From positions 1 through 45,360 of the IMG/VR virus record IMGVR_UViG_3300034418_006661: DNA of 45,360 nt, one strand, 5' to 3'. Origin of the DNA: a virus. Under the pieces are notes generated by a model. It was not told where the DNA came from and made no database searches. It saw only the letters and a program-made list of their open reading frames with translations. Shown here one piece after another: positions 1 to 42,743 of this stretch. Every line of letters starts with the position of its first letter. The first letter of the stretch is position 1. A program made the position numbers and the translations under genes.

Positions 1-1068
1 TCCATACACTGTGTTCAACAGCAACAAGTCAGTGGCACCTATAATGCCGTCTTTATTAAGATCGCACTGAGGACAACCGTCTTCAGCTGGTTCACCAAAT
101 TCAGCTAACAACATCAGCAGATCGTTCGTTCCAACAACAAGGTCTCCGTTAAAGTCACCCCAGCAGAATGGAATCTCATCGATCAGCGTTGGTCTCTCTA
201 CAACAACCCAGTTGTGCATGTACAGGAACTGACCATACGTGAAGGCTGTCCTGCATGAGTCGATGTAATAGTCCATGTGGTTGTTATGGACGTAGTCAGC
301 CCATGGTCTATCTGGATTATAAGTTGTTGGGCACCAAGGAGATACACAGCTGTAGTTTACTTTTGTTGGCGGTGTGTCACAGACGTTATCATGTATCTGT
401 GTACAGTCAGCATCAGCATCTTCTCCGCAGTTGTCTACGCCCTGAAAGACATGGTACAGCCCAAGGTAGTGGCCTACCTCATGAACGAGCGTCTTGTTCT
501 CAGCCCTGTTGTAGATCAGGTAGTCACCGTCAACACCAAAGACATTGGTCTGCACCCACACTCCATCCGCACCGTTAAAACTTATAGGTCTCCTCCAGGC
601 AAACCCAAGTATACCACCGCACATGTCAGGCAGAACGTGTACGTTCATGATCTCATCCCTGTTCCAAGATACCTCCTCACCAAGGTCAAGTGTTCTGTAA
701 CTGGCAGGAGCACAAGCCTCACCTGTAGCCAATGGAGCGCCAGCCTCACTCTCGTCAAGGTCATGGTACTCAACAGCAAGTAGGTCAAAGTCAAAGAGGT
801 ACTCAGCAAACTGTTCGTTTAGGTTCGCAATAGCGTTCTCCGCATGCTCCTGTGGTATCTGGCTGTAGCTGAAAGAATCCGTGTGGTGGATGTGTACGAC
901 TGTCTTTATCGTCTTCCAGAAAACATTCTCAGACTCTGTCATGTCCAAGAACTGACTGATGTAAACGCCATCCTCCTCTGGGGTCCAGCAGATGTTTGAG
1001 TCTATCTGGCCCCAAGAAGTAAGGCTGTAACCTGACAAAAATATTAAGATTAAACTAAGCTGTTTCAT
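1..1068 (-). CDS. Secreted M43 (pappalysin/cytophagalysin-like) metalloprotease with dockerin-like tail, 3' partial
   Basis: Reading the minus strand from the ATG at 1068 gives 356 codons with no stop before the window edge, so the C-terminus is missing. Residues 1-21 look like a Sec signal peptide (MKQ, then hydrophobic LSLILIFLSG, cleavage near SWG-Q). The zinc motif HEVGHYLGLYH is at residues 196-206 and fits HExxHxxGxxH. The Met-turn NHMDYYIDSC is at about 263-272, followed by FTYGQ, the classic M43B ending. Cysteines between them (CDTPP, CVSPWC) also fit the family. After the catalytic domain come two dockerin-like calcium loops, DFNGDLVVGTNDLL (about 305) and DLNKDGIIGATDLL (about 336). 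The start overlaps the stop of the upstream holin as ATGA, so the two are probably translated together. The expected activity is a zinc endopeptidase exported from the host; its substrate is unknown. The family call is strong, the role is inference. Confidence 0.88.
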   Translation of the reverse strand, partial: MKQLSLILIFLSGYSLTSWGQIDSNICWTPEEDGVYISQFLDMTESENVFWKTIKTVVHIHHTDSFSYSQIPQEHAENAIANLNEQFAEYLFDFDLLAVEYHDLDESEAGAPLATGEACAPASYRTLDLGEEVSWNRDEIMNVHVLPDMCGGILGFAWRRPISFNGADGVWVQTNVFGVDGDYLIYNRAENKTLVHEVGHYLGLYHVFQGVDNCGEDADADCTQIHDNVCDTPPTKVNYSCVSPWCPTTYNPDRPWADYVHNNHMDYYIDSCRTAFTYGQFLYMHNWVVVERPTLIDEIPFCWGDFNGDLVVGTNDLLMLLAEFGEPAEDGCPQCDLNKDGIIGATDLLLLNTVYG

Positions 1069-1514
1069 GCTTTTTTGTTCGTTGATGTCTTCTCTATCGT
1101 CCTTCCTGCGAAGTATGCGCCGAACACAGTAAGCATCAGGACCTGAAGCAAATCTATGAAGTTTTCACGCGGCAGAAATTCTTCTGACACTGCATCCCAG
1201 ATAGTTACAGCCATAAAAAACACAAGGAGAGCGATCATTATACTGGGTCTGATAAGCTTTGCAAGTTGCACATCACTAGACATATCCGCCTCCCACCTGC
1301 GGGTAACAGCCTCCTGTCTTGCGATCTCAACCTGCGATGCCAGCTTCTCAAACTCTAGCTTGTCCTGAGCTGATATGTCAGGGTCGCTGTCCACCAGACG
1401 CTTCACTATGCCAAGGACACCTTGGTCAGGAAGCACGTCACCAGCTATGTCAAGCACCTTGGGTGCCTTCTCCTTCAGCCAGCTCTTTAGTTTACTCTCC
1501 TCTGATTTGCTCAT
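1065..1514 (-). CDS. GTA-type 3TM holin-like protein
   Basis: This 149-residue protein has an amphipathic basic N-terminus (SWLKEKAPKVLDIAG), a charged helical middle and the signature RRWEADMSSD just before hydrophobic segments at about residues 87-108 (IRPSIMIALLVFFMAVTIW) and 118-138 (IDLLQVLMLTVFGAYFAG). A WEADM-type motif followed by an RP-containing membrane hairpin is typical of the 3TM holins described in gene-transfer agents and many phages. The likely role is to permeabilise the inner membrane at lysis. The start overlaps the end of the 2,888-residue protein by 23 nt, and the stop overlaps the metalloprotease start as ATGA. This places it in a lysis or late-exit position. No endolysin is visible nearby. 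Confidence 0.72.
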   Translation of the reverse strand: MSKSEESKLKSWLKEKAPKVLDIAGDVLPDQGVLGIVKRLVDSDPDISAQDKLEFEKLASQVEIARQEAVTRRWEADMSSDVQLAKLIRPSIMIALLVFFMAVTIWDAVSEEFLPRENFIDLLQVLMLTVFGAYFAGRTIEKTSTNKKA

Positions 1515-4500
1515 ATCTCTTGTTGAATGTCATCATTACCTTACGCTGTCTCTCCTCAATGTCATGGATGGTGTTCACCCTCTTCGTGTAGTTAGGTATC
1601 TCAGCTGCGTTCTTCCTAGCCTCTCTCAACACCTTCATCAGTTTCTCCGTCTCCTTGTACAGGTCTATGAGTGGACCAACACCTCTGTATCTCTCAAGCT
1701 TTGACATGTTCTTCTTCACCTCTGGGTCAAGAAGCTCGTTGTAAAGTTGCGCTGCCTCAGTAGCGTTCTTTCTGTACCTGTCGTAGTCGTAGTACCTAGA
1801 TGCGCTGCCGTAGATTTTATTCAGGAATATAATATCCGATGGCTCCACCTTAGCAAACTCCCCAGCCTGTACCATACCAGCGGCTGATGTTATCATGGTG
1901 CCAATCTGCGTGATGAACCTACCAGTACCACCCATGAAGTACTCAAAGATGTACCAGAACTTATCTGGGTTCTGATCGGTCACACCAGATGACGTGTACT
2001 TGGTGCCACCAAACACCTGATTGATCCACTTGAAGGTGTCCTGAACAGACTTAGGAGAGTAGAATCCCATCTCAGATTCTGACTTAGGTGTCATGAATGG
2101 GAGCTGTTCCCTTGCGATGCTGTTGCCGAAGTAACTCTCATTCAGTCCAGCCTCCAAGAATGGTTTGATTATGGTAGGAGCAACAGCCTTCAGACCGTAG
2201 TTGAACAGGGACTTAGACTGACCAAAGCTGATCGGAGAGAACGACCCCATGAAGCTGTTGAATAGGAACAAGCCTGCGTCATCTATGTCTCTGTGACCTG
2301 AGGACACAGTTGCTACTGCCTCTCCAAAGTTTGCGAAGATGTTGTAGCCGTAAGGCATCGGTATCTTCATATACTTCTCGCCATCGAGCATGATGACAAG
2401 GTTGCGTTCCTTGACGTAGTCTGGTATCTTGTTGTAGAACAACTCACCATCATCATCCTCATCACTCATAGCAAGGTTGATCATAGTAAGCATGGCGTTG
2501 GTAAGCACAAGACCCACAGCCGCACGTTGAGCATTGTTGGTTCTTTCGTAGAAGCTTCGCTCCTCACCGTTAGCCATCTTCTTTGGCTTGAGTCCAAGCA
2601 TGCTCTTACCAAACCTTGCTGTACCCTGTATACCAGCGTTGAAGAACAGGTACAGTGAACTCAATACACCGCTGTTCTCTCCGCTTCTGTTGAAGTTCAC
2701 GGTTATCTCCTTGGCAAGAGACGCAGCATCTTTTGCATCAAACCCTTTCTTCCTAGCCGCTATAAAGGTTGCGAGTCTCACGCTGTTCTCGAACGCATCG
2801 TTGATAGCCGTTACCTTGTCCTCAGCAAACCTCAACGGACCACCGAGCATCCTCACTAACTGCCTCATCTCACTGTCCTCATCAAGACCTTTCTTTAGCT
2901 TCTTGGCTACCGTCTCCAGTCTGTCTGCGTACGTCCATCCAGTCTTGCCGCCCTCAAGCTCAAACTCCTCTATGTACGAAGCCATATCAGCGTCTCCGAC
3001 CTTCCTGCCAAGGTTGTGCTTCATCAGTGCCCGAAGCGTACCGTTCCTTCCTAGTGAGTTCTTAGCTATGTATGTGGACAGATACTTACCATCCAGACCA
3101 GCGAGATCCTTCTCAGCAAGAGCATTGAAGGTTGCCGCCTGTATGTCCCTCAAGAAGTTTACGATAGTGAACGCAGGGTCAAGTGTGGTGAATGCCTTGC
3201 GGAGCCAGTTGGTCATTGGCGATATCTTAGACAGCAAGCCAAGGCTCTGAGTACCCATGTTCTTGAGTGTTTGAGCGTGTGACTTGTTGTCAAACCTGAT
3301 GTACAACTTCTGACCGTTGATCCTCACAGCTACCGTGTGATCACCATCAGCCTTGTCAGTCACAGTCCATACATCCTTGTTGGGGTTGCTCTTGACCATG
3401 TTGTACATCGCCTGCATAGCCTTGTTCTTCTCCCCAGCTACGATAACAGCCTGAGCTTGGTGGATGACAGTTGCCACAGCGTTAGCCGCACGTGTTTGTC
3501 TTCCCTTTGCTTTCTTGACTATCTCTCCTGGTACGTGAAGCCCAGTACCACCATTTGGTGCTGACCCCTGATCCTCAAGGTTGAGCGTGTTCATCTCATC
3601 GGCGGCTCTTCCGTGAAGCGGAACGTAGTTCTGGTACAACTGATTCCATGAATCTACCCTAGCCTGTGGTTCCAATCCATAAGACACAAGGTTCTCCTGC
3701 GTCTGCTTCTGTATGTCACGAATCATACCAACGATCTGATCAAGCTCTCTCCTCAACTCTGGATCTGAGTCTACGTCGGATAGTATTTCTCTGGCCTCTT
3801 TCGTTGTCATACCACTACCAGCTTCATTAGGCTCCTCAACACCAGCCTCTACCTGATCGAAGTATATCTTCTCGTTTCTTTCCTCAGCATGCAGAGCCGT
3901 AAGGTACTGGTTGATATCAACGGAGTCAATGCCAGTCTCCTTCATGAAGTCTGTTATCTTCTTTACCGCAGTCTCCAACCTGATGAGCCTCTCACCAGTA
4001 CGCCCGTGCATGAGTTTCTCTGCCAGCATAAAGTTCTCAGCCCTTGACACCCCTCTGCCAGCGAACGACTCTATGTCTTTCTGGAGCATAAAGACTCTCC
4101 AGTACTTGTCGTAGTACTTGACCTTTATACCATCCATGGTGTTCTGGAACCATGTTCTCTCTCTCCTGCCCCACACAGCGTTAGGGTCAGAGGCATGAGT
4201 CACGTTATGCGGCTCACTAATCATGACCATAGACTCGTATATACGTGTCACCTCAGGTGTTAAGTCTCGATCAAGTGGCGAGCCTACGATGCCGAAGTAT
4301 ATGTCAAGGAGCCACTCTCTGAACTTCTCAAACACACCATTGAGCTTGCTGCTCTCTGTTGGTCCTTGGAATAGGAACCTCTCAAATCCCTCAGCAAAAG
4401 CCTCAGATGCATCTCTGTTCCATTCGCTGGTGCCAGCCCAGTCCATGACTGTCTGCTTCTCCTCATCGGTTAGGTAGTGCTCAAAGACGTGAGCCATCTC

Positions 4501-7500
4501 ATGGAGAGGCGATGTAACGTCAGGGTTAGTGAGCGCGTAGATAACAGCCTTACCATCCTCCATCGTCATGGCAGCTCTAGCGTCTTGGAACAGGACCATC
4601 GGGTCAGTGATCGGCTCATCGCTGAGCTTCTCTATCACCACACCAGTAGCTCCGAAGCTGTTGTCTTTGGTTACCTTGACCTTGTCACCAAGCAGCTGCT
4701 GCACGTACTCGACCAGCTCGTCACCATCAAATCCTTTCTGGAACACCTCCACTTCTTGGCCGCCACTCTTTCTGGTGATTATCAGTGAGTTATGTTCATC
4801 TCCTGGTACGGAGTTCTTGGCGTTAGCAACGTCACCCTTAAACTTCCTTGCCGACACGTAAGCCTTGCCACCTTGGTTAAGCTTGTTGTAGATGTCCACA
4901 ACGATTCTGTCCCTGATCGCTTTCGGTACAACATTAAGTACATTGAGAGAGACGATACCGTCGTACGTCTTGTTGATGTCTGCCTGGCTACCAAAAGTAA
5001 CCTTCCTGCGCCCCTTCCATCTCTCTGGGTTAGGTTCGTATGAGTCAACATCGAAGCCAAACACACCGCTCATGGCATCGGTACCAAGGCCAAGGCCAGC
5101 ACCGTAGTCCAGAACAGACTGAGGTTGTGACCCCATAAGTTTCTTAGCTGCCTTCACGTAGCTTCCTTGTGTGGTAGCTACCTGTGTCGTACCGCTGTTG
5201 TCATTGTACTTGCCGTCCTGAAGCTTGGCCTTTGACTCAGGTTTCATTATGCTGAGTATCTTAGACACACCTGTTGACGGAGGGAACAGACTATCACTCT
5301 TCTTTCCTAGGGGGGATTGTCTTCCTGGTCTGTTTGCTATGGTCTCGTATGACTTTGCGTCCTTAAGCAGGTGGACCACTGGCTTGTCACCGTTGACTGT
5401 CTCGATAGCGAACGGATAAGACTCGTGGCTTCTTCTTCCCTCACCCTTCGTATCAACAGCCCTGAAGGTATCGCCATTAGGATTCGCATCAACCTCCACC
5501 ACAGCATAGGCTACACCAGCCTGAGCTCCATCCTCAAACAGCTGATTTACAAAACCTTCCTGCAATGACCTAGCTACAGCTGTCATGACCTTACCAGCCG
5601 TAAGCTTTGTCTTCTTCTTGACCGTTGGATGGAGAACACTCTCCATGTCTGAAAAGTCCGCGAAGAACTCGTTCAGGAACTTCTTTTGATTCTCTGTACT
5701 CTGTTCGTTTATGGAGGTTACCATGTTGGTTATCAACCTCTCTATAAACTGTCTGCGCTGGTCGAAGCTTGAGTTGTCAGGATCCATCTTGTCTTGGATA
5801 ACCTGAATCATATCGTCAAACTTCATGCTCTTCTTTATAGGAGCTTTAAATACAATAGCCTTCTTCTTGCCAGTTGTTTTGTCTATGGTAACCTTCTCTT
5901 CTATATTGGACTGAAAGATAGCTGCTGATAGCATCTTCTTAGTGATCGGGTTCTTACTCTGATTGGCCTTCTCTACAAAGAGTTGTACTATGCCTCTGGC
6001 CGCAGTGGTGTTGGAGAACACCTTGGTAAGTGACCCAGTGGTTAGGACAAGCCTTACCTTCCCGTCTGTACTCATCTTCGCGAGCTTGTTGAGCTCACTC
6101 ACCATGCCACTCGCAGCTGATCTAGTCGATGCCCAGAAGTAATTCTCGTCAGCAAACTCTAGCGGATAGAAGACGCCACCGTCACCCTTGATAAGTTCCC
6201 TGTCTCCTATGGATATAGACCCAGAGAACATACCATCAGGTGCGTGGAAGATGACTGGCCCTTCAAAGTCATGAACAGACTTCTCGTTAACAGTCACACG
6301 ACCAGCCTTCATAAACTCTTGGAACTCAGGGGTATCTATAAGCATCGTCCGACTCTTACCAGTAGCTAGGTTGGTCATAGTCTTCTGGTACATAGCTGAG
6401 GCATGATCGTTAGCCTTCGTTGGATCCTCAGTGCTGGTCCACTCGATGGTCTTGTATATCTCTGCCTTGGATTTACCGCTCCTCAAAGCCATAGCACCAA
6501 CCATCCTGTCCATGATGATGGCTGCGTACTTAGCCTCCTTGTCACCAAGACCAAACACCTCCTTACCGATCTTAATCAGGTCCTTGACACCAGTAGCTTT
6601 TACTCTGTCTTTTTTCTCCTCAGGCTTCTGCTGGGCAGTACCATCACCCTTGCCAGACTGCATCTTCACCTCTGGCCCCTGAGCTTTTTTAAGCTTACGG
6701 TTGACAGCAGCTAATTCTCTCTTGACCTCTTTAATGTCGTCCTTGTACGAATCGACCGTGTCATCATGGTCGTTCTTCAGATCAACAAGCTTACCCTCCT
6801 TCAGTTCGTCTATAGCCTCAGTCTTCTCCTCCTTGGACATGTTCTTGTCCTTCCTGATCTTAGCTATCTCTTCCTTGATCTTTGCGACCTCCTCCTTGTA
6901 GTTCCCCTTCTCTATCTCTATCTCTTCTTGTAACTCTTCTATTTTGTACTCGCCGTAATCCTTCTCAGCTTGAAGTTGAGCAAGCTCTTGATCACTGGCT
7001 TTCTTGGCTGGTGCCTTCTTTTTAGGTGCAGCCTTCTTGGCAGCTGGCTGTGCAGGAGCAGCTTCATCAAACATGCTATCACCAACATACTCACCAATTG
7101 TTTGATTGGCTTCTGTCTCTGATGGCCTGTATAAACCAGACTCATCAACGTATACATCGGTGCCATCTGGCACATACAAAGACACACCTTCTTGCGGAGA
7201 TCCAGCTACTCTTCTGTATTTCTTTCCAGTTTTCTTGTCCGTCACCAGAGGCATGTTCTCAGTGTCTACTTTCTTGTTCTTCGGTGCCTCCTGTGTTGGT
7301 TTCTCTTTCTTCTTCTGCTTGGGTGGCTCTGGTTGTTTTTCCTCCTTCTTCTGTTGAGCCTGTTGTCTTTGACGTTCCTTTACTCTTCTCTCATACTCCT
7401 CCATGCCAGCCTTGGTTACTGGCTGTTGGGGAGTGGCTTGTTCAGCTTGTTGAGTATCTGGAGTCGTTTCTTGAGCGGCAGTTTGTTCAGCAGCTCTAGC

Positions 7501-10158
7501 CTGCTCAAAGGCTTGTTTGGTGTCTGTGTCTTCATTCTCAAGTTGTTCAAGTTGTTGTTCGAGCTGTGCCTTATCCTCAAAGCTAGCGAGTGTTATCTCG
7601 TACGCCAAGGCATCAGCGTTGGTTCCTCTGAAGGTACGCATCCTGCCCTTCTCATCCTGTAGTCTTACGTTGACTATGTTGCCGTCCTTGTCTCTGGTAA
7701 TCGCCTGCTCAGGATTTTCGTTTGGATTGGTGTAGTTCTTGTTGTTAACGACAAAGCTGCCGTCATTGTTAGCGACTACGTTAGGTTGAGTTGGTTTGAG
7801 CCCAAGGCTCAGTGTAGAGTTGCCTGACAGCTCATCGTAATTACCAAGCTCGATCACCTGCTTCCCATCAAACGACTGAAGAGAAACTCTTCTTCCGTCA
7901 CCATCACCCTCAACGATAAGCTCCCCCTGAACAGTCTGTTTTTTGCCATCCCTGTCGGTGTAGCTCATCTCGTATGTCTGTCCTACGTTCTCGGAGACAG
8001 CGTTGGTGAGTGGCTTGGCACCCTCAGCTCTTGCTGGACCTCTCTCTGCCCTTGGCTTGACATCAAGGATAACACGCTCTTGAGGTTCCTCAATCTGTTC
8101 AGCCTCATCAACCTTACCCTCAGCCTCCAGCTCAGCCTTCCTCTGAGCTATCTCAGCAGCCCTTCTCTCATCTATCTCTCTCTGCCTCTCAACAGCCTGG
8201 ATAGCCTCATCAACCTGCTGCTCTGTAGGTTCTTGTTGTGTGTCAACATCTTGCTCAGTCTCCGTATACTTTGCAAGGATAGCGTCTATCTGAGACTCAA
8301 CCATCTTGAGTCTGTTCTCTGTTAACTCGTTGTGCTTGGGAGCGACAGTGACATCAAGGAGGTTAGCACTCATACGTGACTGCAACTCTGCTCTTTGCAT
8401 CTCAAGATCAACGAGTGCATCAGCGTCCTCCTTGGATATAGATGGGTCAAGCGTTGATCGTATCTCAGCGTCAGTGAACTTGTTGTTGACAAACCTCTCC
8501 ATGCTTGGGTCGTTGTCAACCTGTATGCGCATGTCCTTCAGCTCCTGTGGATCAGCGGCAGTTATGATGGTAATGAACTGCTCTGGAGTAACCTTCTGAC
8601 CGTTGATGGTGTACTCTGGCAGCTTGCCGTTAATCTCTATAAGACCTCTCCTAGCAAGCTCAGCACGTTCTTTGTACGCGTTGAAGACAGGTTTACCACC
8701 AGACACAGCAAAGCCGCCCACCTCACCAAAGAACTCAGCCGTCACCTCAGACGGAGTAATATCCTGACCAACCGCCAAACGCGCAGATACCTCACCAGCA
8801 GCACCAGCTGTCGCCTCCGTAAACACGCCAGCACCAGCAGCAGAGAGAGGCTTGTAGCCCTTACCCAACATCTTGGTAGCCAGTCTGCCTGATGCCTTAC
8901 CGCCTAGGAAGTCTATCATGGCGATCGTTCCGCCCCTTGTGGCTGATCTCTTCAGTATGTTTGCCCTTGACTCATCGCTGTTCAGTACCCTGAGGATGTT
9001 CTCTTCGTTGCGCTCCAAACCAAGTCTGTCAAGCTCCATGCCAACCATATCACTAAACGATAGACCCATCTCGCTGATGGAACTAGCGATAGAGAACGCT
9101 GGAAGAGCCGCTGATGCAGCACCTATCATGGCACCTGCACCCGCACCAGGCAGCGCCAGAACACCAGCAGTAGGCGTACCAAGCAGACCTGCACCACCCA
9201 AGGCACCAACACCCATACCAGTACCTATAGTAGCGGCAGCTGCGTTAAGAGACTTGATGTTAAGGAGAGAACCCATGGACCTAGCCGCCTGTTGCGACAT
9301 GACCGATGGGTTTAGGATGTATGCTATTATATTGTTGTAGAACGTGTCTCCGTTCTCAGCTATGTAGTTCTCGTACGCAATGGTCTCCTCACTCTTACCG
9401 TACATCTTCTCGTACTCAGAGTAGTACTGCTCAGCATCAGCAAGGGCACGGACATCATCCATGGTGAACTCCCTGTTCGTAAGGAGCTGCTGCATGTAGT
9501 CGATGTTTATCTCGATCGTCTTTGCGTCTGGAATCACACCAGCAAACAACTCACGAGCAACGTCATCCACAAAGTCCCCCAGTGGGAGGGAGGTCAAGAA
9601 CTTGAGTACACCAGTGTCAATACCAGTAGCGTTCTTTGTCAACTCAGCAAGGAAAGGAATCTCCTTCTCAGGTGCCTTGTTACCAAAGACATCCTTGTCT
9701 CTCCCGTTCTTAGCTATGTCAAGCTGTGCCTGCGCCCAGTCTTCTTTGCTGTACTGATTGAATGTGTCAAGGTCGCCAGCATTAAGCGACTGGAGAACCT
9801 GTTTGTCTCTGTAGGTAAGGGTGTCGTTAGTGCTTGGTAATGGTGAGGCCACACTTGAGCTCAATTGCTCTGCCTCTACCGTAGGCAACTCTGGTATGCC
9901 ATCCCCAAAACCGATCTCTTCCAAACGAGATTGATAGCCAGGTACCTCCTTTTTTTTTTCAGGCTCAGGGGCCTTGAAGTACTCATTGTAGAAGTCATTG
10001 ATGTTCAGATCAGTAAGCTGATTCTGAATCATAAACTCATACATATCAGCGTACTTGCTGTTGTCCTGTGAGTACGTGTCAAAGAACTGCTGCTGATCAA
10101 GATCGGTGAGGCTGTTTGTCTTGAAGAACTCGTAAAGCTTTATATACTTCTCGTTCAT
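1492..10158 (-). CDS. Giant polyvalent virion/ejection protein with methyltransferase and zincin signatures
   Basis: At 2,888 residues this is the largest gene here. Residues 1-62 hold two copies of a Y-E-F-(x)-LTDL-(x)-F-(x)-Y repeat. Residues 305-360 are a Gly/Ala-rich hydrophobic stretch (VGALGGAGLLG, GAGAGAMIGAASAALP) that could insert in membranes. Residues 860-1050 are Q/E/K-rich low complexity, and about 1070-1175 a coiled coil. A class I SAM-methyltransferase motif I, DYGAGLGLGTD, lies at about 1683 with YEPNP downstream. A zincin motif LHEMAH lies at about 1884 with a later SEAFAEGFERFL, as in minzincin-like domains. The C-terminal third (LDPAFTIVNFLRDIQ; YLFFNAGIQGTARF at about 2504) resembles large polyvalent-protein-associated domains. 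Such proteins are usually packaged in the capsid and ejected with DNA. Its position after two internal-protein genes fits. Its TAATG start overlaps the preceding stop. The enzyme activities are inferred from motifs. Confidence 0.8.
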   Translation of the reverse strand: MNEKYIKLYEFFKTNSLTDLDQQQFFDTYSQDNSKYADMYEFMIQNQLTDLNINDFYNEYFKAPEPEKKKEVPGYQSRLEEIGFGDGIPELPTVEAEQLSSSVASPLPSTNDTLTYRDKQVLQSLNAGDLDTFNQYSKEDWAQAQLDIAKNGRDKDVFGNKAPEKEIPFLAELTKNATGIDTGVLKFLTSLPLGDFVDDVARELFAGVIPDAKTIEINIDYMQQLLTNREFTMDDVRALADAEQYYSEYEKMYGKSEETIAYENYIAENGDTFYNNIIAYILNPSVMSQQAARSMGSLLNIKSLNAAAATIGTGMGVGALGGAGLLGTPTAGVLALPGAGAGAMIGAASAALPAFSIASSISEMGLSFSDMVGMELDRLGLERNEENILRVLNSDESRANILKRSATRGGTIAMIDFLGGKASGRLATKMLGKGYKPLSAAGAGVFTEATAGAAGEVSARLAVGQDITPSEVTAEFFGEVGGFAVSGGKPVFNAYKERAELARRGLIEINGKLPEYTINGQKVTPEQFITIITAADPQELKDMRIQVDNDPSMERFVNNKFTDAEIRSTLDPSISKEDADALVDLEMQRAELQSRMSANLLDVTVAPKHNELTENRLKMVESQIDAILAKYTETEQDVDTQQEPTEQQVDEAIQAVERQREIDERRAAEIAQRKAELEAEGKVDEAEQIEEPQERVILDVKPRAERGPARAEGAKPLTNAVSENVGQTYEMSYTDRDGKKQTVQGELIVEGDGDGRRVSLQSFDGKQVIELGNYDELSGNSTLSLGLKPTQPNVVANNDGSFVVNNKNYTNPNENPEQAITRDKDGNIVNVRLQDEKGRMRTFRGTNADALAYEITLASFEDKAQLEQQLEQLENEDTDTKQAFEQARAAEQTAAQETTPDTQQAEQATPQQPVTKAGMEEYERRVKERQRQQAQQKKEEKQPEPPKQKKKEKPTQEAPKNKKVDTENMPLVTDKKTGKKYRRVAGSPQEGVSLYVPDGTDVYVDESGLYRPSETEANQTIGEYVGDSMFDEAAPAQPAAKKAAPKKKAPAKKASDQELAQLQAEKDYGEYKIEELQEEIEIEKGNYKEEVAKIKEEIAKIRKDKNMSKEEKTEAIDELKEGKLVDLKNDHDDTVDSYKDDIKEVKRELAAVNRKLKKAQGPEVKMQSGKGDGTAQQKPEEKKDRVKATGVKDLIKIGKEVFGLGDKEAKYAAIIMDRMVGAMALRSGKSKAEIYKTIEWTSTEDPTKANDHASAMYQKTMTNLATGKSRTMLIDTPEFQEFMKAGRVTVNEKSVHDFEGPVIFHAPDGMFSGSISIGDRELIKGDGGVFYPLEFADENYFWASTRSAASGMVSELNKLAKMSTDGKVRLVLTTGSLTKVFSNTTAARGIVQLFVEKANQSKNPITKKMLSAAIFQSNIEEKVTIDKTTGKKKAIVFKAPIKKSMKFDDMIQVIQDKMDPDNSSFDQRRQFIERLITNMVTSINEQSTENQKKFLNEFFADFSDMESVLHPTVKKKTKLTAGKVMTAVARSLQEGFVNQLFEDGAQAGVAYAVVEVDANPNGDTFRAVDTKGEGRRSHESYPFAIETVNGDKPVVHLLKDAKSYETIANRPGRQSPLGKKSDSLFPPSTGVSKILSIMKPESKAKLQDGKYNDNSGTTQVATTQGSYVKAAKKLMGSQPQSVLDYGAGLGLGTDAMSGVFGFDVDSYEPNPERWKGRRKVTFGSQADINKTYDGIVSLNVLNVVPKAIRDRIVVDIYNKLNQGGKAYVSARKFKGDVANAKNSVPGDEHNSLIITRKSGGQEVEVFQKGFDGDELVEYVQQLLGDKVKVTKDNSFGATGVVIEKLSDEPITDPMVLFQDARAAMTMEDGKAVIYALTNPDVTSPLHEMAHVFEHYLTDEEKQTVMDWAGTSEWNRDASEAFAEGFERFLFQGPTESSKLNGVFEKFREWLLDIYFGIVGSPLDRDLTPEVTRIYESMVMISEPHNVTHASDPNAVWGRRERTWFQNTMDGIKVKYYDKYWRVFMLQKDIESFAGRGVSRAENFMLAEKLMHGRTGERLIRLETAVKKITDFMKETGIDSVDINQYLTALHAEERNEKIYFDQVEAGVEEPNEAGSGMTTKEAREILSDVDSDPELRRELDQIVGMIRDIQKQTQENLVSYGLEPQARVDSWNQLYQNYVPLHGRAADEMNTLNLEDQGSAPNGGTGLHVPGEIVKKAKGRQTRAANAVATVIHQAQAVIVAGEKNKAMQAMYNMVKSNPNKDVWTVTDKADGDHTVAVRINGQKLYIRFDNKSHAQTLKNMGTQSLGLLSKISPMTNWLRKAFTTLDPAFTIVNFLRDIQAATFNALAEKDLAGLDGKYLSTYIAKNSLGRNGTLRALMKHNLGRKVGDADMASYIEEFELEGGKTGWTYADRLETVAKKLKKGLDEDSEMRQLVRMLGGPLRFAEDKVTAINDAFENSVRLATFIAARKKGFDAKDAASLAKEITVNFNRSGENSGVLSSLYLFFNAGIQGTARFGKSMLGLKPKKMANGEERSFYERTNNAQRAAVGLVLTNAMLTMINLAMSDEDDDGELFYNKIPDYVKERNLVIMLDGEKYMKIPMPYGYNIFANFGEAVATVSSGHRDIDDAGLFLFNSFMGSFSPISFGQSKSLFNYGLKAVAPTIIKPFLEAGLNESYFGNSIAREQLPFMTPKSESEMGFYSPKSVQDTFKWINQVFGGTKYTSSGVTDQNPDKFWYIFEYFMGGTGRFITQIGTMITSAAGMVQAGEFAKVEPSDIIFLNKIYGSASRYYDYDRYRKNATEAAQLYNELLDPEVKKNMSKLERYRGVGPLIDLYKETEKLMKVLREARKNAAEIPNYTKRVNTIHDIEERQRKVMMTFNKRYEQIRGE

Positions 10159-27723: not shown

Positions 27724-27972
27724 TTAGTCCAAGTTTTTACGAGCCAACAGTAGCTTTATCTCATGGATATCCTCAACAAGTTGTTCTAGAGTTTTTTTTA
27801 TTTCGCTCGACTGTGCCTCATTATTAGCTACCCTTGTTGATATAAGTTCAACCTTCGCCCTGACAGCATTAACCTCATTGTTCATCTTCAGATAAACACC
27901 TACGAGACCAACGACAAGCATCACAATCTGGTATAGCGATATATCTGTTGACATGTTCACAAAACTAATCAT
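27724..27972 (-). CDS. Small membrane protein with coiled coil (holin/spanin-like candidate), 82 aa
   Basis: Residues 11-29 (ISLYQIVMLVVGLVGVYLK) form one membrane helix preceded by a short N-terminus. The rest is a charged heptad-like helix (NEVNAVRAKVELISTRVANN, SSEIKKTLEQLVEDIHEIK) ending LLLARKNLD. One membrane segment plus a cytoplasmic or periplasmic coiled coil resembles XhlA-type lysis accessory proteins or small phage membrane anchors. An in-frame ATG at residue 7 (27954) is an alternative start. It lies between a small Cys protein and the capsid block, away from the holin at 1065-1514. I cannot separate a lysis role from a head-assembly membrane role. Confidence 0.5.
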   Translation of the reverse strand: MISFVNMSTDISLYQIVMLVVGLVGVYLKMNNEVNAVRAKVELISTRVANNEAQSSEIKKTLEQLVEDIHEIKLLLARKNLD

Positions 27973-29734: not shown

Positions 29735-32467
29735 TCAATTTATTTCAAGATAATCACTAGATGGGTCAAACATAAACGCACTGTTTGTTGCATCAACAAC
29801 ATAACCAACTGTCCTTACCACCGCCCCACTTGTTGATGGGGCTGTCGCTGTAACAGCTCCAGATGTCTCGGATACAAATAGAAGCTGTCCTGAAGTCAAA
29901 GATGTCAACGACGTGCTTGACCTAACTACTCCTCTACTAACCATATCTGTTCCATCTGTCGTGTTTGAGCAAACAGCAAGAAGGGTTGAAGACGTACCAG
30001 TTGCGCTTGCATCAGCAAGGCTCCATGAAGAACCAGTCCAATAATACAAGGCTCCAGCAGTTAAACTTAATCCGCTTGCCCATGAGTCATAGGTCTGTGT
30101 TCCAGTAGAGTATTGACCAGCGCCAGCTGATGTTGTTTTGCTTATACTAGATGGACCTGTCGCACCCGTCGCCCCAGTAGCGCCTGTGGCCCCATTAACT
30201 CCGTCGGTGCCATCAGTACCTGGATCGCCAGTGGCACCCGTTGCACCAGTCGCTCCCGTTGCACCAGTAGCCCCAGTGGCACCGTCAACCCCATCAGTAC
30301 CATTTGTTCCAGGGTCACCTGTCGCTCCCGTAGCACCCGTAGCTCCTGTCGCACCAGTTGCACCCGTAGCTCCAGTTGATCCATCTACACCGTCTACTCC
30401 GTCAGCACCAGGGTCTCCAGTCGCTCCCGTAGCCCCTGTCGCCCCAGTCGCTCCCGTAGCCCCTGTTGCCCCATCGACCCCATCTGTACCGTCAGCACCA
30501 GGATCCCCTGTGGCACCAGTAGCACCAGTAGCCCCTGTGGCACCAGTAGCCCCTGTAGGACCTGTCGCTCCATCTACGCCATCTGTACCAGGATCCCCTG
30601 TAGCACCTGTAGCCCCAGTTGAACCAGTAGCACCTGTAGGTCCTGTTGCACCGTCTATACCGTCAATCCCATCAGTACCTGGATCTCCAGTTGCTCCAGT
30701 AGCGCCTGTTGAACCTGTGGCCCCTGTAGCACCCGTAGCCCCTGTCGCGCCAGTAGGGCCTACAGCACCATACTTAATGGTTGGTCGAACAAATATTGTT
30801 CCTTGATTTTGGTGAGAGTTGGTGACAGCGGCCAACAGTATATTGGGAGTTGCAGGCTCAGTTGTTGTAAACTCACCTGCTGTTGTACCTGACAGATACA
30901 GCAGGTCACCAACATTGTAGTCCTCTGTATCTAACCCTCTTACCTTACCAAAGCTAGTGACATAGCCAAAGTCATTTGTGTTAAAGCTCTGCGTAGCAAC
31001 ACCAATAACCCACTCAGGGATAAACCCTGTTGCGCCTGTATCCGCCTTAGCAATAAGAAGATGATCGCCCTCAGCACCCGCAAACATCACAACATTACCA
31101 TCAGTAATATTCTCCGTAGCCTTAGCATAGAAATGCTGTTCTTGCCCTACCTGAAGAGAAACACCATTGCCGTAGTCAAGGTCTAGTGTTCCATCAATGT
31201 CATTCTTTCTAAACGTGTACCAATCATTTGATCCTGTTGCGCCTACTTGAAGGTCACCATTTATCCTCACATACCTGTTTTCATAGTCATCGTACTGACC
31301 AGAAATAAGGTGGTCGTATTCATTAAATAACGGAGATCCGTTTGCTGGAACAGATGAGTTAGCAATTCGTATCAGTCCAGACGTAGGTCCACTATATGTT
31401 ATTGGCGGTATTCCAGAATAAGCTCCCAGAAATATACTATTGTTCGTTGCGAAAAGGCTGTTTCCAGCCTGACCGCCAACCATAACATTATTATCTCCAT
31501 CCATGGCCGCATAACCTGCTCTGCGACCAAGCAATACATTATTTTCTCCTGTAACTGACGAAGGAAGCCAAAGAGCCCCTGCGTCTGAACCAACAACAAG
31601 ATTTGTATCATCAAACCCAGAAGGTATAGAAACAGATTGTTTTGGACCGCCAGATGCAATTATACGAAGTGCGTATTGACCAGTTACCCCAGAAGAGTTA
31701 TAAAAGGCTAATGCCGTACCTACTGGAATATCAACAGATCTTGTGGCGTTAAGAGTTAAGTTAGCATTAGCTATGTTGGTGTCTGACGCAACATCAGGCT
31801 CAAGCCACTCAGTGTCATAGTCGGTATTTGATGCTTTTGCAAGTACATACCCAGCCGTCCCTCCAGTGGGAACCCCTTGACCAGGGTCTCCTGTAGCCCC
31901 TGTAGCTCCAGTAGCACCTGTAGGACCAGGTACTGTTGAGTCTGCTCCAGGGTCGCCTGTGGCTCCTGTGGCCCCTGTAGGACCAGTTGCCCCTGTTGGA
32001 CCTGTAGCACCGTCTACGCCATCAGTACCTGGATCTCCAGTAGCCCCAGTGGATCCAGTAGCCCCTGTAGGGCCAGTGGCTCCCGTAGCGCCATCTTGAC
32101 CGTCTACTCCATCTATACCATCAGAACCTGGATCTCCCGTAGCGCCTGTGGCACCTGTTGCTCCCGTCGCACCAGTCGTTCCATCCTGACCGTCTACGCC
32201 ATCTGTACCATCATTACCTGTAGCACCTGTAGCACCCGTTGGGCCTGTCGCTCCTGTGGCACCATCCGCACCAGTAGGTCCAGTGGGTCCAGTGGGTCCT
32301 GTCGCGCCATCACCACCAGTCCCACTAGTCAAACCAAGAGGCAATGGAGACAAAGACTTATCTGACACACTCACGGTGACGGACGGTGGGTTTACAACAG
32401 TAACCGTTATAGGTGATGGGACGGTTATGTTTACCTGGTTAGAGTCTCTATCAAAGTTTACAGCCAT
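29735..32467 (-). CDS. Collagen-like tail fibre with YadA-like middle, 910 aa
   Basis: After a ~45-residue beta N-terminus ([20 protein letters not shown]) come Gly-X-Y repeats at about residues 46-200 and again at about 567-772, mostly [10 protein letters not shown] with GDPG and GTDGVDG variants and one [11 protein letters not shown]. The middle contains [30 protein letters not shown] and SIFLGAYSG, a left-handed roll pattern as in YadA-type heads and phage fibres. It is followed by a beta domain with [20 protein letters not shown]. The C-terminal ~130 residues are beta-rich ([29 protein letters not shown]). Such proteins form trimeric rods. It ends 4 nt from the start of the next gene upstream and is presumably assembled with it at the tail or capsid surface. 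Confidence 0.8.
30150..30770 (-). repeat. Second collagen-like Gly-X-Y tract of the 910-aa fibre
   Basis: About 200 residues of near-perfect G-X-Y, mainly GAT, GPT, GDP and GVD triplets. At DNA level this gives a 9-bp periodicity of variants of gcyacnggn, a likely site for length changes by recombination. Confidence 0.9.
31866..32330 (-). repeat. First collagen-like Gly-X-Y tract of the 910-aa fibre
   Basis: About 150 residues of G-X-Y, with two breaks of the GADSTVPGP or GDPGQGVP type near its end. Codon and triplet choice are almost the same as in the tract at 30150-30770, so the two may recombine. Confidence 0.88.
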
Positions 32468-32471
32468 GTTG

Positions 32472-35400
32472 TTATGGTAGTGCGGTTACAGTTAGTGTTA
32501 TAGGTGGGTACGTGCCACCGTACTTAACGAGTAATGAGTCAGATGTTCCACTTAAAAGAACTATACCAAAATACAGTGTTTCAGTTCCTCCAGTTGTTGA
32601 GAAGGATCCTATGCTGTTGACCGTGATATACTTGCCATCAACATAGTTCTCGCTCCCTTTTTTGTAACATATGTTCTGTCTCCTGCCATCCCCATTGTCA
32701 TCCCAAGCGCCACCAACAAGAAAGGTGGTTCCAAACTCATCTATAGCAAACGCTACTTCACTTGTCAATATGTCACTAGCATCATTCTCTATGTACGCTG
32801 ATGCTTGAACAAGAACCTTTCCGCTGCTTGGCACTGTAAATGTTACAGACAAACCAGTATCAAATACGATTCCATCCCCACCAACCTCATTATTCAAGAT
32901 CCACTCTGTGTCAGATGCAGCTGACAGGTAGTCATAAGCAAGGATAGAACTTCCGCCTCCACCTCCAGCAGAGGGTGTCTGCCATGACACGTTACCAGAT
33001 CCATCGGTTGTCATCACCTGACCTGTAGCTCCATCAGAAGAAGGAAGAGTAAATGGATTAGCCCCATCATCTACTGTAATCTGACCAGTAACTGTAAGAT
33101 GATCAGACACGGTTGTTACACCTTCTCCGCTTCCATTTATTTCAACCGTGAATTTTTCTACGTTAGATGAATTTTCGCAAACAATATTTTTCTGGTTGTT
33201 AGACGCTTTAATTCCAAGTTTTTCTAATGTTGTTGTATTATGACCACCAAGAGATAACGGCTGTAGCACATCAACTCTATTTGAGGAACCTTGCAACCTT
33301 AATACATCTCCAGTAATGTCTGAATGAAAATCAATTCCAGTAGAATTGACTTGAATCTTCATGTTGCCCAAATTGTCTGACAAAACAATTTCCCCAGCAG
33401 AAAGAACTATATCACCAGTGCCATCTGGCTCAATAACAATATCACCGTTAGATGAACTAACAATATTACTGACAATGAGATTTCCATTTGCTATCTTCAG
33501 GTCTCCGTTAGAGAACTCTGAGTCAATAGCGATATCTGCCGCTGTTATCTCTTGTACCTTAAGTTGAGACAGTCTCCAACCGTCCTCTATCTCATCTCCA
33601 GTATATCCGTACTGAAGTTTACCTAAACCAAACCCAAACTTGTGATTTGTTTTCCAATCCCACTTGGTATACAGCGATGGATGCCCGTTTCGTAGTATAG
33701 CCAGGTAGTCACCAACTTTTCGAATCTTTATCTCATGGTCCACAGTGTTTGCGGGCCATATGAAATTTCTATAATTATAACGTCCATTTCGAATAGGTGC
33801 ATATGCATACCCTTCTGGGTGAGTGTATTCAAAATGTGGTTCAAAATTTATATTTGATATAACACCCGCCTCTATTCTAGCAACATAGGTGTCACCGTAA
33901 TCTCTGGATAATCTTATTACGTCAAAGTTAGAACTGTCAACGTAGTTAAATATGATTTGGAACGTAGAGCTATCCGCTGTAACATCTGCTAGAACAGAGC
34001 TTGACAAATCATAAACTATCTCATAGTCCCCAGACAGTTCTGTGTTTACAATGACAGTCTCCCCATCGTTGTCATCTCTTGCCCCATATTCATTTCTTGC
34101 CCACCCGTTAGAGCCAGACACAATGATATTCGCGTTTGCACTTCCAGAGTTGTAAAATACACTGTACCCATTACCAACATCGGGCGTGTGAGATTCTATG
34201 TCTGTATCTGTGGCCTCTGTAAACGTATCGTTGTGGTATATTGTTCCTGTGGGGGTGATATCTTCTTTTGCAAGTTTCTGTCCAGAAACAACCATGTTGC
34301 TGGATACCTCAACATTACCCTTTACGTTTAATAAACCTCTAGCTATTATTTCGCTATCAGCGTTTGAGCCAATACTTACCCTAGAAAAATGGTCTCCAAA
34401 TCCGTTATCTGCGATTCTCACCCAATCGTAAGCTGGAATTGAGGAAGTACCTAAATTAGCATTGTCTTTTTCGTAGTAACATATGTTGCTTGTAGCGTAA
34501 CCAACTGCCCTGCCTGAGCTAAGACTACCACAGCTTACTGACCCAGTAGTGTTAAGTCCTGTTGTTGATATTGAAAGGATGTCAGAAGCGCTTCTTACAT
34601 CAAGCACACCATTAACAACCATACCATTAAACTCGCCCTTCTCCCCAAAAACTTTACCATCAGTAGAGAGTGTTTGAACATTTACCCCTGGGGATGTATC
34701 AAACTCATGAACAGAGTCAGAGCTATCATCAACAACAAACAGTTTTCGCTGTTCCTCAGCGAAGTACATCTGCGCTGGAGTAAATATGTCATTGCCTCTG
34801 AATACACTGCTATAACGAACAAAAGAAAGTGTGCTTATGTCCCATGGTGTGGTAAGCTCCCATTGTACAACAACATCTGCCTGATAGTCTGATGTGTAAA
34901 CATCTACACCATCATCTGCAATCCACATCCCAAAGTAATTACTTGGGTAAGCATTACTAACATATGGTAGCCCTGGGTAATCTGTTACGCTAGACATGTT
35001 CAGCGTTGAGCTTACATAGCTAGCTGTGCTTGGGTCCCATGGCGTAGACAGAGAGAACTGGTATATCTTTTCTGTGGTAAAGTCACCAGTGTACATGACT
35101 GTACCATCAGGCTTAAAGAACAGACTACACGGGTTAACTGATTCAGAAACAAGGGACGTTATGCTCACACTCATAGAATCTGTAGAAAACGCTGTGCTTA
35201 AGTCCCATGCTGTACTCATTGTCCAAACCTGAACCCTATCCTCATCATCATCAGCAGCGTACAGGTATGTCCCTGTTGGGTCTATGAATATGCTGTATAC
35301 TGTATTAGCGCTTGGTGGGGTTTGGGCTGCATCAAGCCTGTAGGACTGGACAGCCGTCTCTACGTCCCAAGCGGTTGATAGATCGTATTCAAAAATATCA

Positions 35401-36080
35401 TCAGTTGCCCAATCAGAGATGTACATCTTTGTTCCATCAGGCTTGAACCAAAGACCTCTGGGGCCATTAAGAAGTAAAATAGGGTTAAACGTAGAATTGT
35501 CTACAGTCCTTTTCCCTGTGCGTATCCAGTTCCTTACATCGTACCTGTTTGTTGGGGTTAGGTTGTCGGAGTTTACTGTACCCTCAAGTTTCATGTCCCC
35601 AACGACATGCAATGGTTCTGATGGGGCTGTCGTGCCTATCCCTACGTTGCCATCGATGTAATAGATATCATCTCCATCTGACACCCAGTTATCGGCTGGG
35701 CCTGTAGCGCCCGTAGCACCTGTGGCACCCGTAGCGCCCGTAGCACCTGTGGGTCCTACAGGGCCCTGATCGCCAGTATCACCCTTATCACCCTTATCAC
35801 CCTGAGGACCTGTTTCACCTTGGATCCCCTGTTCACCTTGGACCCCTTGGATCCCCTGTATACCTTGTATACCTTGTTCCCCTTGAGGGCCTGTCTCCCC
35901 TTGAGGGCCAGGCACTGTTGAGTCAGCGCCTGTGGGGCCTGTAGGACCTGTATTGCCTTGCGGTCCAGTATTCCCCTGAGGACCAGGTACCGTTGAGTCA
36001 GCCCCAGTAGGACCTATGGGACCTGTGGGGCCCGTTTCTCCCTTGGCACCACTGTTAAGAGTTACTGTTACCCTGCTCAT
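32472..36080 (-). CDS. Collagen-like, beta-propeller, C1q-ended tail fibre, 1,202 aa
   Basis: The order of domains is: Gly-X-Y rod at about 9-127 with two [11 protein letters not shown] breaks; a fibre neck [20 protein letters not shown]; five beta-propeller-like blades at about 200-467 ([18 protein letters not shown] then [16 protein letters not shown], each blade with DGTxMY and STxWDxSTA); a neck/beta section; a ConA-like sandwich at about 613-847 ending [18 protein letters not shown]; then repeated beta segments ([15 protein letters not shown]). It ends in a C1q/TNF-like trimer-head candidate at about 1040-1202 ([20 protein letters not shown]). It is probably a trimeric adhesive fibre. 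The TGATG overlap with the BppU-like adaptor upstream suggests that protein attaches it. The propeller is unusual for a fibre shaft. Confidence 0.78.
35690..36050 (-). repeat. Collagen-like tract of the 1,202-aa fibre
   Basis: About 120 residues of Gly-X-Y, with GPQG, GIQGIQG, GDKGDKG and GATGATG blocks interrupted twice by [11 protein letters not shown]. The GADSTVPGP break is shared with the 910-aa fibre. Confidence 0.88.
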
Positions 36081-38975: not shown

Positions 38976-41081
38976 CTAGCCGATCGCCCTATACCGACGG
39001 AAAAACTTCTTGTCATCAAACTTAGCTGCCTCTTTCTTCTTCGGTGTCTGAGCAGCAAGCAGCGCCAAACCTGAGCTTATCGTAAGGTCATACTTGGTCC
39101 GCTTATCTATACGGAACCCTATCCAGTCCTCAAGCGTCTTGTCGAAGTACATGTTCCCATACTCGCCTGTTTCGTAGTTAATGCCAACATGGTTGTGTAT
39201 GTACTGCTCAATAGCTTGCGCGTGTGCGTGTATCACATCCTGAGAGTTTGATGGTATACCCTTGGTCTTTGACATCTGACCAGAACCAGACATCAAGTGC
39301 TTCGGTCTCTCAAGAAGATAACCATCGTAACCCCTTGATTCAAAGTACCTTGCAATTCCGTACTTGTTGTTCTCAATCAGCAGTGGGTAGCCGTAGAACA
39401 CAGCGCACATCAGAACATCCTCATAGAAGATCTTCGCCATGTCTGGTCGAGAGGCGTACTCTACAACGAACATATTAGACGGCCTGTTCATGGAGAACTT
39501 GTTGTACATGTGCAGCGCACCCTTAGATCCCCTGCCATCTACTGTCGCATCAATATCATAGGAGTCGACACCACCTACACCATAGTGAGGGAACGGAGGC
39601 ATGCGTTTTCCCCTATCCTCATAGATGACACTCCTCTCATCCTCACCAGGCATCCATGACACCCTAAACCTACCGTGTCTGTCTGGTGTGAAGACAACCT
39701 TCTTGTCCTGCTCCTCCCAGATGAAGTTGCCACTCACAACAGGGTTAGGGAACAGATCCTGGTTGTAATCTATCTGCTCGTATATCTTACCTATGTTGAA
39801 CAGACTGCCGTCGATGCTGTCTCTGAACGCTTCGTCCTCAGTGAACGGGAACTGACGTACCACCTCATTGAGTTCAGAGGAATCAAACTTAAGCGACTCA
39901 CGTTCGTTCTTCAGGTACTCCTTGGCACCGATCAGTATAGGCGCACCATCAAGCCCATCAACAGGCTCCTCAGGTGTCTCAACGATAGGGTTGCCGTACA
40001 CATCAAAGAAACCCTCAAGGGCCTCATAAGCTGGTATGAATATCCTGTACAGCCCAGAGGTAGTCCTGCCGTTCTGGTTTCGCTTCGTTGGGTCGCTGTC
40101 CTCCCATAGCTTCTTGTACTCCTCACCTCCCTTGCTCATTGGGTTCACCGTGCTACCCACCATAGCCTTCCCAACAACTCTCCTACCAACAATAAGACAG
40201 GTTCTTTGGATACGCCATGCTTCTCTTATGTCAGCAGGGTCCTCCCACTTACCAGCCTCATCGAGATAGAGCATGTGAAGTTTCAATCCGTCATAGGCGT
40301 TGTTGGTCGTGTTCTTCCAGTTGATGATGGTGTCAAGTGCCTCACCCTGAATAGCAGTCTTGTTCTTCTTGGTGATACGCTTTGATGGCTCACGAAAAGC
40401 AAGTTCCATCCTTGGGTTGGTGGTACCATCCTGGATAGGTTTGAAGAAGAACGGATAACCCCTGAACATGTTCACGACCTTGTTCATGAAGATGTTCTCC
40501 TGAGCGTCCTTACCAGTCTTGGATTGTATGCCCAGAACCTTATTCTTTACCTGAGTCGCCTCATCAGTAACGACCGCTGAGCACATGTTAGTGTATCCAG
40601 AACGGCGACACTTAGTATAAAGCTGGCCCAAGCAGCGAGGATCAACTTCACAAGCAGCCATATGTAAAAAGATCTCGCGCTGGAACGCAAGATAGCTAGG
40701 GTATCCGACATCGATCTTTGTCCATTGCAGCATCATGTAATGCCTGCCCGTAATATACGTTGGTGTCCCGTTGTTCATGAACCACACACCCTCTCTACGT
40801 CTACGAAACTCCTGCTCTATATAACCCTCATACATATCCCTGAAACCCTTTGGCTTCTCTAACCACTCATCCATGGATTTGACTTTGTCCATGTCCTGCG
40901 GAACAGGCACACGCATCCATTTCTGCTCCTTCTTTGGTTTATCAGAGAACAGTATGTCTTTTTTTGGTGGTTGCTTGGGCAGCACAACAAGAAGCCCATG
41001 GAGCTCAATAGCCTCACCATGGGTTTCATTAGGGTCAATAACTATACCCTCTGTGCTGTATCCATCAACCTTTATTAGCAT
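38976..41081 (-). CDS. terL: Terminase large subunit, 701 aa
   Basis: The N-terminal ATPase has a deviant Walker A, KCRRSGYTNM (residues 157-166), which parallels lambda gpA KSARVGYSKM with Lys at the first position. A Walker B, LHMLYLDEA, lies at about 268-276. The nuclease half begins near VGGVDSYDIDA (about 502) and continues LLIENNKYGIARYFESRG, as in RNase H-like TerL nucleases. NNGTPTYITGRHYMMLQWTK near residue 103 is a pattern I know from crAss-like terminases. The enzyme packages DNA through the portal, whose gene is next. The start overlaps the UDP-galactopyranose mutase gene by 17 nt. No small terminase subunit is obvious next to it. The AAG codon at 40611-40613 encodes the Walker A lysine. 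Confidence 0.88.
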   Translation of the reverse strand: MLIKVDGYSTEGIVIDPNETHGEAIELHGLLVVLPKQPPKKDILFSDKPKKEQKWMRVPVPQDMDKVKSMDEWLEKPKGFRDMYEGYIEQEFRRRREGVWFMNNGTPTYITGRHYMMLQWTKIDVGYPSYLAFQREIFLHMAACEVDPRCLGQLYTKCRRSGYTNMCSAVVTDEATQVKNKVLGIQSKTGKDAQENIFMNKVVNMFRGYPFFFKPIQDGTTNPRMELAFREPSKRITKKNKTAIQGEALDTIINWKNTTNNAYDGLKLHMLYLDEAGKWEDPADIREAWRIQRTCLIVGRRVVGKAMVGSTVNPMSKGGEEYKKLWEDSDPTKRNQNGRTTSGLYRIFIPAYEALEGFFDVYGNPIVETPEEPVDGLDGAPILIGAKEYLKNERESLKFDSSELNEVVRQFPFTEDEAFRDSIDGSLFNIGKIYEQIDYNQDLFPNPVVSGNFIWEEQDKKVVFTPDRHGRFRVSWMPGEDERSVIYEDRGKRMPPFPHYGVGGVDSYDIDATVDGRGSKGALHMYNKFSMNRPSNMFVVEYASRPDMAKIFYEDVLMCAVFYGYPLLIENNKYGIARYFESRGYDGYLLERPKHLMSGSGQMSKTKGIPSNSQDVIHAHAQAIEQYIHNHVGINYETGEYGNMYFDKTLEDWIGFRIDKRTKYDLTISSGLALLAAQTPKKKEAAKFDDKKFFRRYRAIG

Positions 41082-42189
41082 CCGACAAAAACTTTTTTGA
41101 CTTGTTTAATGCAGACGCTATTACCTGATGCATATCGTAATACTTGTACTCAGCAAGCCTACCTCCGAATATTACGTTTTTCTCTTTTGATGCCATCTCC
41201 TTGTACTTGCTATACCTGACCTTACTCTCTTCGTCATAACATGGGTAGTAAGCCTCTTTACCTCTATAGTATTCATCTGGGTACTCCACACTGACAACGG
41301 TAGATTTTGTTTTTGGCCTATTGGCTTTTAGAAAAAGTTTGTGTTCTATAACCCTTGTGTACGGCGTGTCTTCGTCTGTGTAGTTCATTACAGCACAACC
41401 TTGAAACACATCTTGAGCATACTGACCGTGTTCCCAACGAAGTGACCTGTAATTTAAATCTCCCTCTGAGTAGTTAAAATAAGCATCAATTGGTCCAGTA
41501 TAAACTACAGTATCAGCGTACTTGTCTAAGTAGTCTTTATTCTTTAAATAGCATGTGTTTAGCTGAACCTTGATGTTTTCATGATCAAGTATATTCTCAA
41601 TCATACTTGTGTATCCATTAATTGGAATGCCCTCATACTTATCGTCAAAGTACCTTGAATCCCATTCAAACCTCAACGGAAGCCTTTTAATTATACTTGC
41701 TGGAAGCTCAGACGGATCAACACCCCATTGTTTCTTGGTGTAGCCTTTTATTAACTTGTTGTATATCGTTTTACCAACAGACGAGATAGCGTGATCCTTG
41801 AGGCTATTCTTGGGAGCAAGTGTGTACGACTGTGACTTTATCTTTTCTTTTGCTTCGTGAGCAGTACTAACACCCCAGAGTTGATTAAACGTCCACATAT
41901 TAAAAGGAAGCGAGTACACCTTTCCGTTGTTGTTTGCAACAGGAGAGAAAGCTGTATGCTCGAACTCAGCAAATTTATTTACCCAATCCCATATAAACTT
42001 GTCGTTCGTATGAAAGATGTGAGGTCCATACATATGAACATCAATACCAGTGGCTGATTTCTTTGTGTAGCAATTTCCGCCTATGTGATCTCTTTTGTCA
42101 ATAACAAGGCACTCATGACCATCTTCAGCACACTGTCTTGCAAAGACACTACCAAAAAGACCAGACCCAACGATTAATACTTTACTCAT
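41065..42189 (-). CDS. glf: UDP-galactopyranose mutase
   Basis: I choose the ATG at 42189 (MSKVLIVGSGLFGSVFARQC). A TTG five codons earlier would run further into the neighbouring gene. The GxGxxG FAD loop, VIDKRDHIGGNCYT, HMYGPHIFHTND, YSLPFNMWTFNQLWG, GYTKKQWGVDPSELPASIIK and VSVEYPDEYYRGKEAYYP all match UDP-galactopyranose mutase (~370 residues, usual length). The enzyme isomerises UDP-galactopyranose to UDP-galactofuranose, a donor for bacterial surface glycans, in the cytoplasm. It follows three glycan-related genes with overlaps of 8-23 nt or 10-nt gaps, so galactofuranose transfer by a neighbouring glycosyltransferase is likely. The family call is strong; the substrate of the transferase is unknown. 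Confidence 0.93.
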   Translation of the reverse strand: MSKVLIVGSGLFGSVFARQCAEDGHECLVIDKRDHIGGNCYTKKSATGIDVHMYGPHIFHTNDKFIWDWVNKFAEFEHTAFSPVANNNGKVYSLPFNMWTFNQLWGVSTAHEAKEKIKSQSYTLAPKNSLKDHAISSVGKTIYNKLIKGYTKKQWGVDPSELPASIIKRLPLRFEWDSRYFDDKYEGIPINGYTSMIENILDHENIKVQLNTCYLKNKDYLDKYADTVVYTGPIDAYFNYSEGDLNYRSLRWEHGQYAQDVFQGCAVMNYTDEDTPYTRVIEHKLFLKANRPKTKSTVVSVEYPDEYYRGKEAYYPCYDEESKVRYSKYKEMASKEKNVIFGGRLAEYKYYDMHQVIASALNKSKKFLSDANKG

Positions 42190-42733: not shown

Positions 42734-42743
42734 AATAGAACTG

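Follow-up and report, generated by a model that had tools for sequence, protein, structure and literature searches.

What does a metalloprotease with a predicted signal peptide do for a phage when its gene directly follows a holin gene at the very end of the contig, and does the gene belong to the phage at all? The window, meaning the whole stretch of DNA analysed, is an entire virus record of 45,360 bases. The protease open reading frame (1-1068, minus strand) spans 356 codons and stays open up to the contig end, with no stop codon. Because the contig end cuts the frame, the protein lacks its C-terminal tail, which is about 40 amino acids long in the nearest relatives. The features of the locus are as follows.

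1..1068, minus strand: gene for an M43B (lower pappalysin) metalloprotease, truncated 3' by the contig end
1..165, minus strand: dockerin-like pair of calcium loops, truncated (residues 302-356)
208..672, minus strand: M43 catalytic domain, Pfam match (residues 133-287)
268..276, minus strand: Met-turn MDY with tyrosine-switch Tyr267 (residues 265-267)
451..483, minus strand: zinc motif HEVGHYLGLYH (residues 196-206)
988..990, minus strand: Cys27, candidate cysteine switch, aligned with promirolysin residue 23
1009..1068, minus strand: predicted signal peptide (residues 1-20, by eye), hydrophobic start kept in relatives
1065..1514, minus strand: holin, overlapping the protease start by ATGA
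27724..27972, minus strand: 82-aa TM/coiled-coil protein, weak Rz-like spanin match

The protease is a firm member of the M43B pappalysins. Pfam Peptidase_M43 matches it with an E-value of 5e-14 and 52.9 bits (cut-off 23), and among proteins of solved structure ulilysin (E 1e-10) and mirolysin (E 2e-10) come nearest in sequence. The structure predicted for it (pLDDT 83.4, pTM 0.77) is most similar to promirolysin (Z 23.5) and to proulilysin (Z 23.3), followed by human pappalysins (Z about 19-21) and other metzincins (about 14). A preliminary description had proposed an M43 pappalysin with a signal peptide, HEVGHYLGLYH at residues 196-206, an MDY turn and two DxNxDG loops. All of these are read in the 1-1068 frame, and the family assignment is borne out by the Pfam and structural matches. 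The signal peptide, identified by eye, is a hydrophobic stretch from residue 1 to about 20 (...SLTSWGQ). The two loops, which are of the calcium type, lie at residues 305-316 and 336-347, and Pfam Dockerin_1 gives a borderline match barely above its cut-off (E 9e-5).

Scans of viral contigs with the window protein and with its alignment yielded 40 loci. His196, Glu197, His200 and His206 of the HExxHxxGxxH motif are invariant in 42 viral rows, as are Met265 of the Met-turn and Tyr267; a tyrosine two residues after the Met-turn methionine is part of the M43B definition (PMC11674741). The catalytic-domain cysteines 222, 241, 246 and 272, candidates for the two disulfides conserved in M43B enzymes, are kept in 40-42 of the 42 rows and align roughly with those of ulilysin. 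Loss of the zinc site in close relatives, a check proposed in the preliminary description, is rejected: the site is retained in all non-truncated relatives except L152, a broken-up gene. Across 17 close pairs of M43 genes dN/dS is 0.05-0.14, so the genes are under purifying selection and function is maintained. Cys27 is also invariant in the 42 rows. It is the first residue aligned with promirolysin, at position 23, and promirolysin Cys23 was shown by experiment to be a cysteine switch (PMC8259862). The window protease is a candidate zymogen with Cys27 as its putative switch, a reading kept conditional because the model has low confidence in that stretch (pLDDT under 50).

Mirolysin of Tannerella forsythia and ulilysin of Methanosarcina acetivorans share the predicted fold, zinc motif, Met-turn, tyrosine switch and, by rough alignment, the conserved cysteines of the phage protein, and its N-terminal cysteine appears to sit at the place of promirolysin Cys23. 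Unlike them, the window protease is phage-encoded, is located in a lysis cassette and has a dockerin-like tail. The giant viruses Tupanvirus and Yasminevirus likewise carry an M43-type fold, in ulilysin-like proteins, but infect eukaryotes and have no lysis cassette of this kind.

The holin of the window matches PHROG 3427 'holin' (E 2e-17), with Pfam GTA_holin_3TM under its cut-off. Direct coupling of the protease to the holin, also part of the preliminary description, is well supported: 21 holin-M43 pairs have a 4-base overlap of holin stop and M43 start, seen in the window as ATGA. Among 24 dereplicated loci found via M43 alone, a lysis gene (holin or endolysin-type) lies no more than 1.5 kb away in 17, against 6.0 expected, and none of 10,000 random placements reached 17. 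The lysis link of M43 is well supported by gene order. Exceptions are the viral M43s of L023, L024 and L031, which lie away from known lysis genes. A pair of M43-type genes occurs in each of the viral contigs L023 (9863-12391), L024 (9980-11383 and 19391-20512) and L041 (9359-13524), one of which is 152 kb long; these genes lie away from known lysis genes.

Profiles built from the loci show cassettes of varying composition, with a holin, a TM/coiled-coil gene, a secreted protein of predicted thioredoxin fold, M43 and an endolysin-type gene. In some relatives, L018 among them, a homolog of the window's 82-aa TM/coiled-coil protein separates the holin from M43. The secreted protein is about 106-111 aa long and has one invariant cysteine; it occurs in several M43 lysis cassettes (L011 5375-5698; L016 418-738; L007 4085-4420). 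The endolysin-type genes are of three kinds: amidase_2, M15 or DUF5675. DUF5675, which receives passing mentions and no stated function in the literature searched, may be an endolysin, judging by gene place and an HxGN...SxGC motif resembling the one in L,D-transpeptidase folds. The M43 protein itself is rejected as the endolysin. M43 phages carry separate M15, amidase_2 or DUF5675 genes, the M15 endolysin is elsewhere in the genome in 9 of 12 podovirus-type records, and the protease keeps its place beside the holin even when the M15 endolysin is distant. None of the three families was found in the window contig, itself incomplete.

The holin-M43 linkage recurs in phages with very different terminases, of 19-20% identity; that of L004, for example, is only 19% identical to the window's. 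The M43 proteins of L004 and L005 (large-ORF podovirus type) are 91% identical, whereas their holins are 66% identical. This points to transfer of the protease gene between phage lineages, in both of which it sits behind the holin.

Where the enzyme acts depends on its export. Three cellular relatives tested carry the T9SS sorting domain TIGR04183 (E 1e-8 to 1e-14). In the window's branch, the complete tails of L002 and L018 have no match to it; the window's own tail is missing. Mirolysin has a T9SS tail, unlike this branch, and its export runs in two steps (PMC8259862). With a Sec signal only and the T9SS tail absent, the enzyme should therefore stop in the periplasm. The window-branch protease is predicted to be periplasmic, and it is less likely to cross the outer membrane ahead of lysis. 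In the outer viral branches, the only T9SS match is a weak one in L031 (E 0.14). The M43 proteins of L031, L034, L040, L184 and L023 end in a GIY...K tail resembling a degenerate T9SS sorting tail.

The most likely explanation is a predicted mechanism in which the protease cuts the envelope or acts at the outer membrane. We think it slightly more probable than not that the protein is a lysis-cassette protease, exported by Sec as a zymogen and attacking envelope proteins at lysis. The protease would be made late, its translation coupled to the holin through the ATGA overlap. The host Sec system would carry it into the periplasm as an inactive zymogen held by Cys27, and it would be activated around lysis. 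The active enzyme would then cut envelope proteins, likeliest those of the periplasm or outer membrane that keep the envelope intact, and this cleavage would permit a full burst and free the progeny. It would act beside a separate peptidoglycan-degrading endolysin and may serve at the outer membrane as spanins do in other Gram-negative phages. Periplasmic export, latency, timing, substrate and outer-membrane role are all predicted parts of this scheme. Among the roles listed in the preliminary description (lysis, spread, host modification, fitness), the genomic evidence favors the lysis-linked one, and the others are less favored.

Spanins (Rz/Rz1 and unimolecular) and mycobacteriophage LysB are also lysis-cassette proteins acting on the outer envelope layer (PMC6139136, PMC5707550). 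Spanins are non-enzymes and LysB is an esterase, whereas the phage M43 protein is a protease with a putative action on that layer. In a simple, crude lipobox scan limited to the neighborhood of the cassette, 73 of 75 M43 loci have no lipoprotein-type spanin. M43-less loci also have no o-spanin visible to a simple lipobox scan, leaving M43 as a plain o-spanin substitute unsupported. M43 as a spanin is rejected: a simple pattern scan found no lipobox in the M43 proteins of this clade, and the predicted fold is that of an enzyme. Bacteroidetes phages are reported to use only unimolecular spanins (PMC12596118), and a unimolecular spanin in the M43 phages could escape the crude lipobox scan. A further reading, to which we give somewhat less than even chances, is that Bacteroidota phages lacking classical spanins rupture the outer membrane with an exported pappalysin zymogen, which would cleave proteins of the envelope at the time of lysis.

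The protease is an accessory, because M43 is missing from about half of the phages that carry this holin: the 53 holin clusters comprise 25 with the gene and 28 without. It is not required for lysis in sister phages. In the M43-less L138 (5429-6166) and L141 (5282-6751), the slot after the holin is filled by another, larger protein that begins with a hydrophobic stretch and, in L138, matches no Pfam family.

The alternative that survives best, although we regard it as unlikely, is a protease freed at the burst that digests extracellular matrix, biofilm or debris. An equally unlikely purpose is that the digestion lets progeny spread or liberates trapped virions. Cellular M43 relatives are secreted enzymes (PMC8259862, PMC11674741), lysis-cassette timing is compatible with release at the burst, and the dockerin-like tail could have an external binding target. 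The nearest precedent in a phage is the zinc metallopeptidase of the Maribacter phages Molly and Colly, likewise phages of Flavobacteriia, which has an export signal and is annotated to the matrixin family; the Molly enzyme is proposed to digest extracellular matrix (PMC8776804). This metallopeptidase differs in being 199 aa long with a lipoprotein domain, and it is a poor structural match to the window protease model. The Colly gene is about 34 kb from the amidase gene, outside any lysis cassette. Holin-coupled translation and constant adjacency instead suggest action within the lysing cell. The absent T9SS tail and the gene's place in the lysis cassette are the grounds for preferring a role in lysis to an extracellular one.

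Envelope remodelling during infection is improbable. Here, surface or periplasmic proteins such as receptors would be trimmed before lysis; the equally improbable purpose would be to block superinfection or keep progeny from sticking to debris. Predicted export, close selection on the active site and the weak T9SS-like tails of some outer members (L031, E 0.14) agree with such a function, but lysis-gene linkage implies late expression and the window's branch has no T9SS tail. Still less probable is a fitness cargo, a host-derived protease that ends the late operon and supplies peptides or amino acids with no part in lysis. Its patchy presence, in about half of the phages that carry this holin, and its movement between phage lineages are in keeping with cargo, but adjacency to holin and endolysin-type genes far exceeds random placement. 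The weakest alternative, a host gene at a prophage edge or an assembly chimera, is prompted by the position at the contig end and can be dismissed as extremely improbable, given the identical arrangement in many independent viral contigs, with phage genes after it, and a phage-only clade.

Gene order in relatives shows what lies beyond the break. In L002 and others, the genes after M43 lie on the opposite strand and encode a phage ribonucleotide reductase and a primase-helicase; L004, L027 and others have an endolysin-type gene there and then the terminase. The preliminary description had raised the prospect of host gene order past position 1; phage genes are found there in relatives, and a host boundary or chimera is rejected on this synteny.

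When 58 viral and 58 cellular M43 domains are placed in one tree, a single clade contains 54 of the 58 viral sequences, the window's included (UFBoot 96, SH-aLRT 86). The clade stands apart from the sampled cellular M43s, which were drawn from the best 80 matches; the top relatives among these are Bacteroidota and Planctomycetota M43s of about 30-38% identity, and a closer cellular relative may exist beyond them. The M43B branch of phages is real, conserved, phage-specific and linked with the lysis cassette. A search of 50,697 annotated phage records gave no match for the window protein and, for the other clade members, a single weak one, MT837139, a 7.6-kb faecal fragment. No description of a phage pappalysin was found in the open-access papers searched.

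The phages with this protease are an uncultured group related to phages of Flavobacteria. The window's terminase, portal and capsid proteins match phage families, and its terminase shares 47% identity with its counterpart in podovirus MW202828 and 41% with those of the Flavobacterium elemo phages. In both of these, the late operon ends with a very large late protein, beyond which neither a holin nor a protease is annotated; the window, by comparison, has two genes added after this protein, the holin and the M43 protease. The large late protein of the window (1492-10158, 2888 aa) has an LPD38 polyvalent domain and a methyltransferase match under the cut-off. Two long proteins rich in collagen-like G-x-x repeats are encoded downstream of the portal gene (29735-36080). 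A UDP-galactopyranose-mutase-like gene, recognized by eye, and glycosyltransferase-like genes adjoin the large terminase (41065-43995) and perhaps serve surface-sugar or virion glycosylation.

These results bring to light a branch of pappalysins whose evolution within phages has lasted long enough for identity to fall to about 30-35%. How spanin-less phages, including those of Bacteroides and Croceibacter, carry out the outer-membrane step is a recognized open question (PMC6139136), and M43 offers a concrete candidate that can be tested, present repeatedly in uncultured phages related to cultured ones that infect Flavobacteria. If the proposed role is true, the protease would constitute a new class of lysis-cassette effector alongside holin, endolysin and spanin, and the family provides new proteases that may act on Bacteroidota envelopes.
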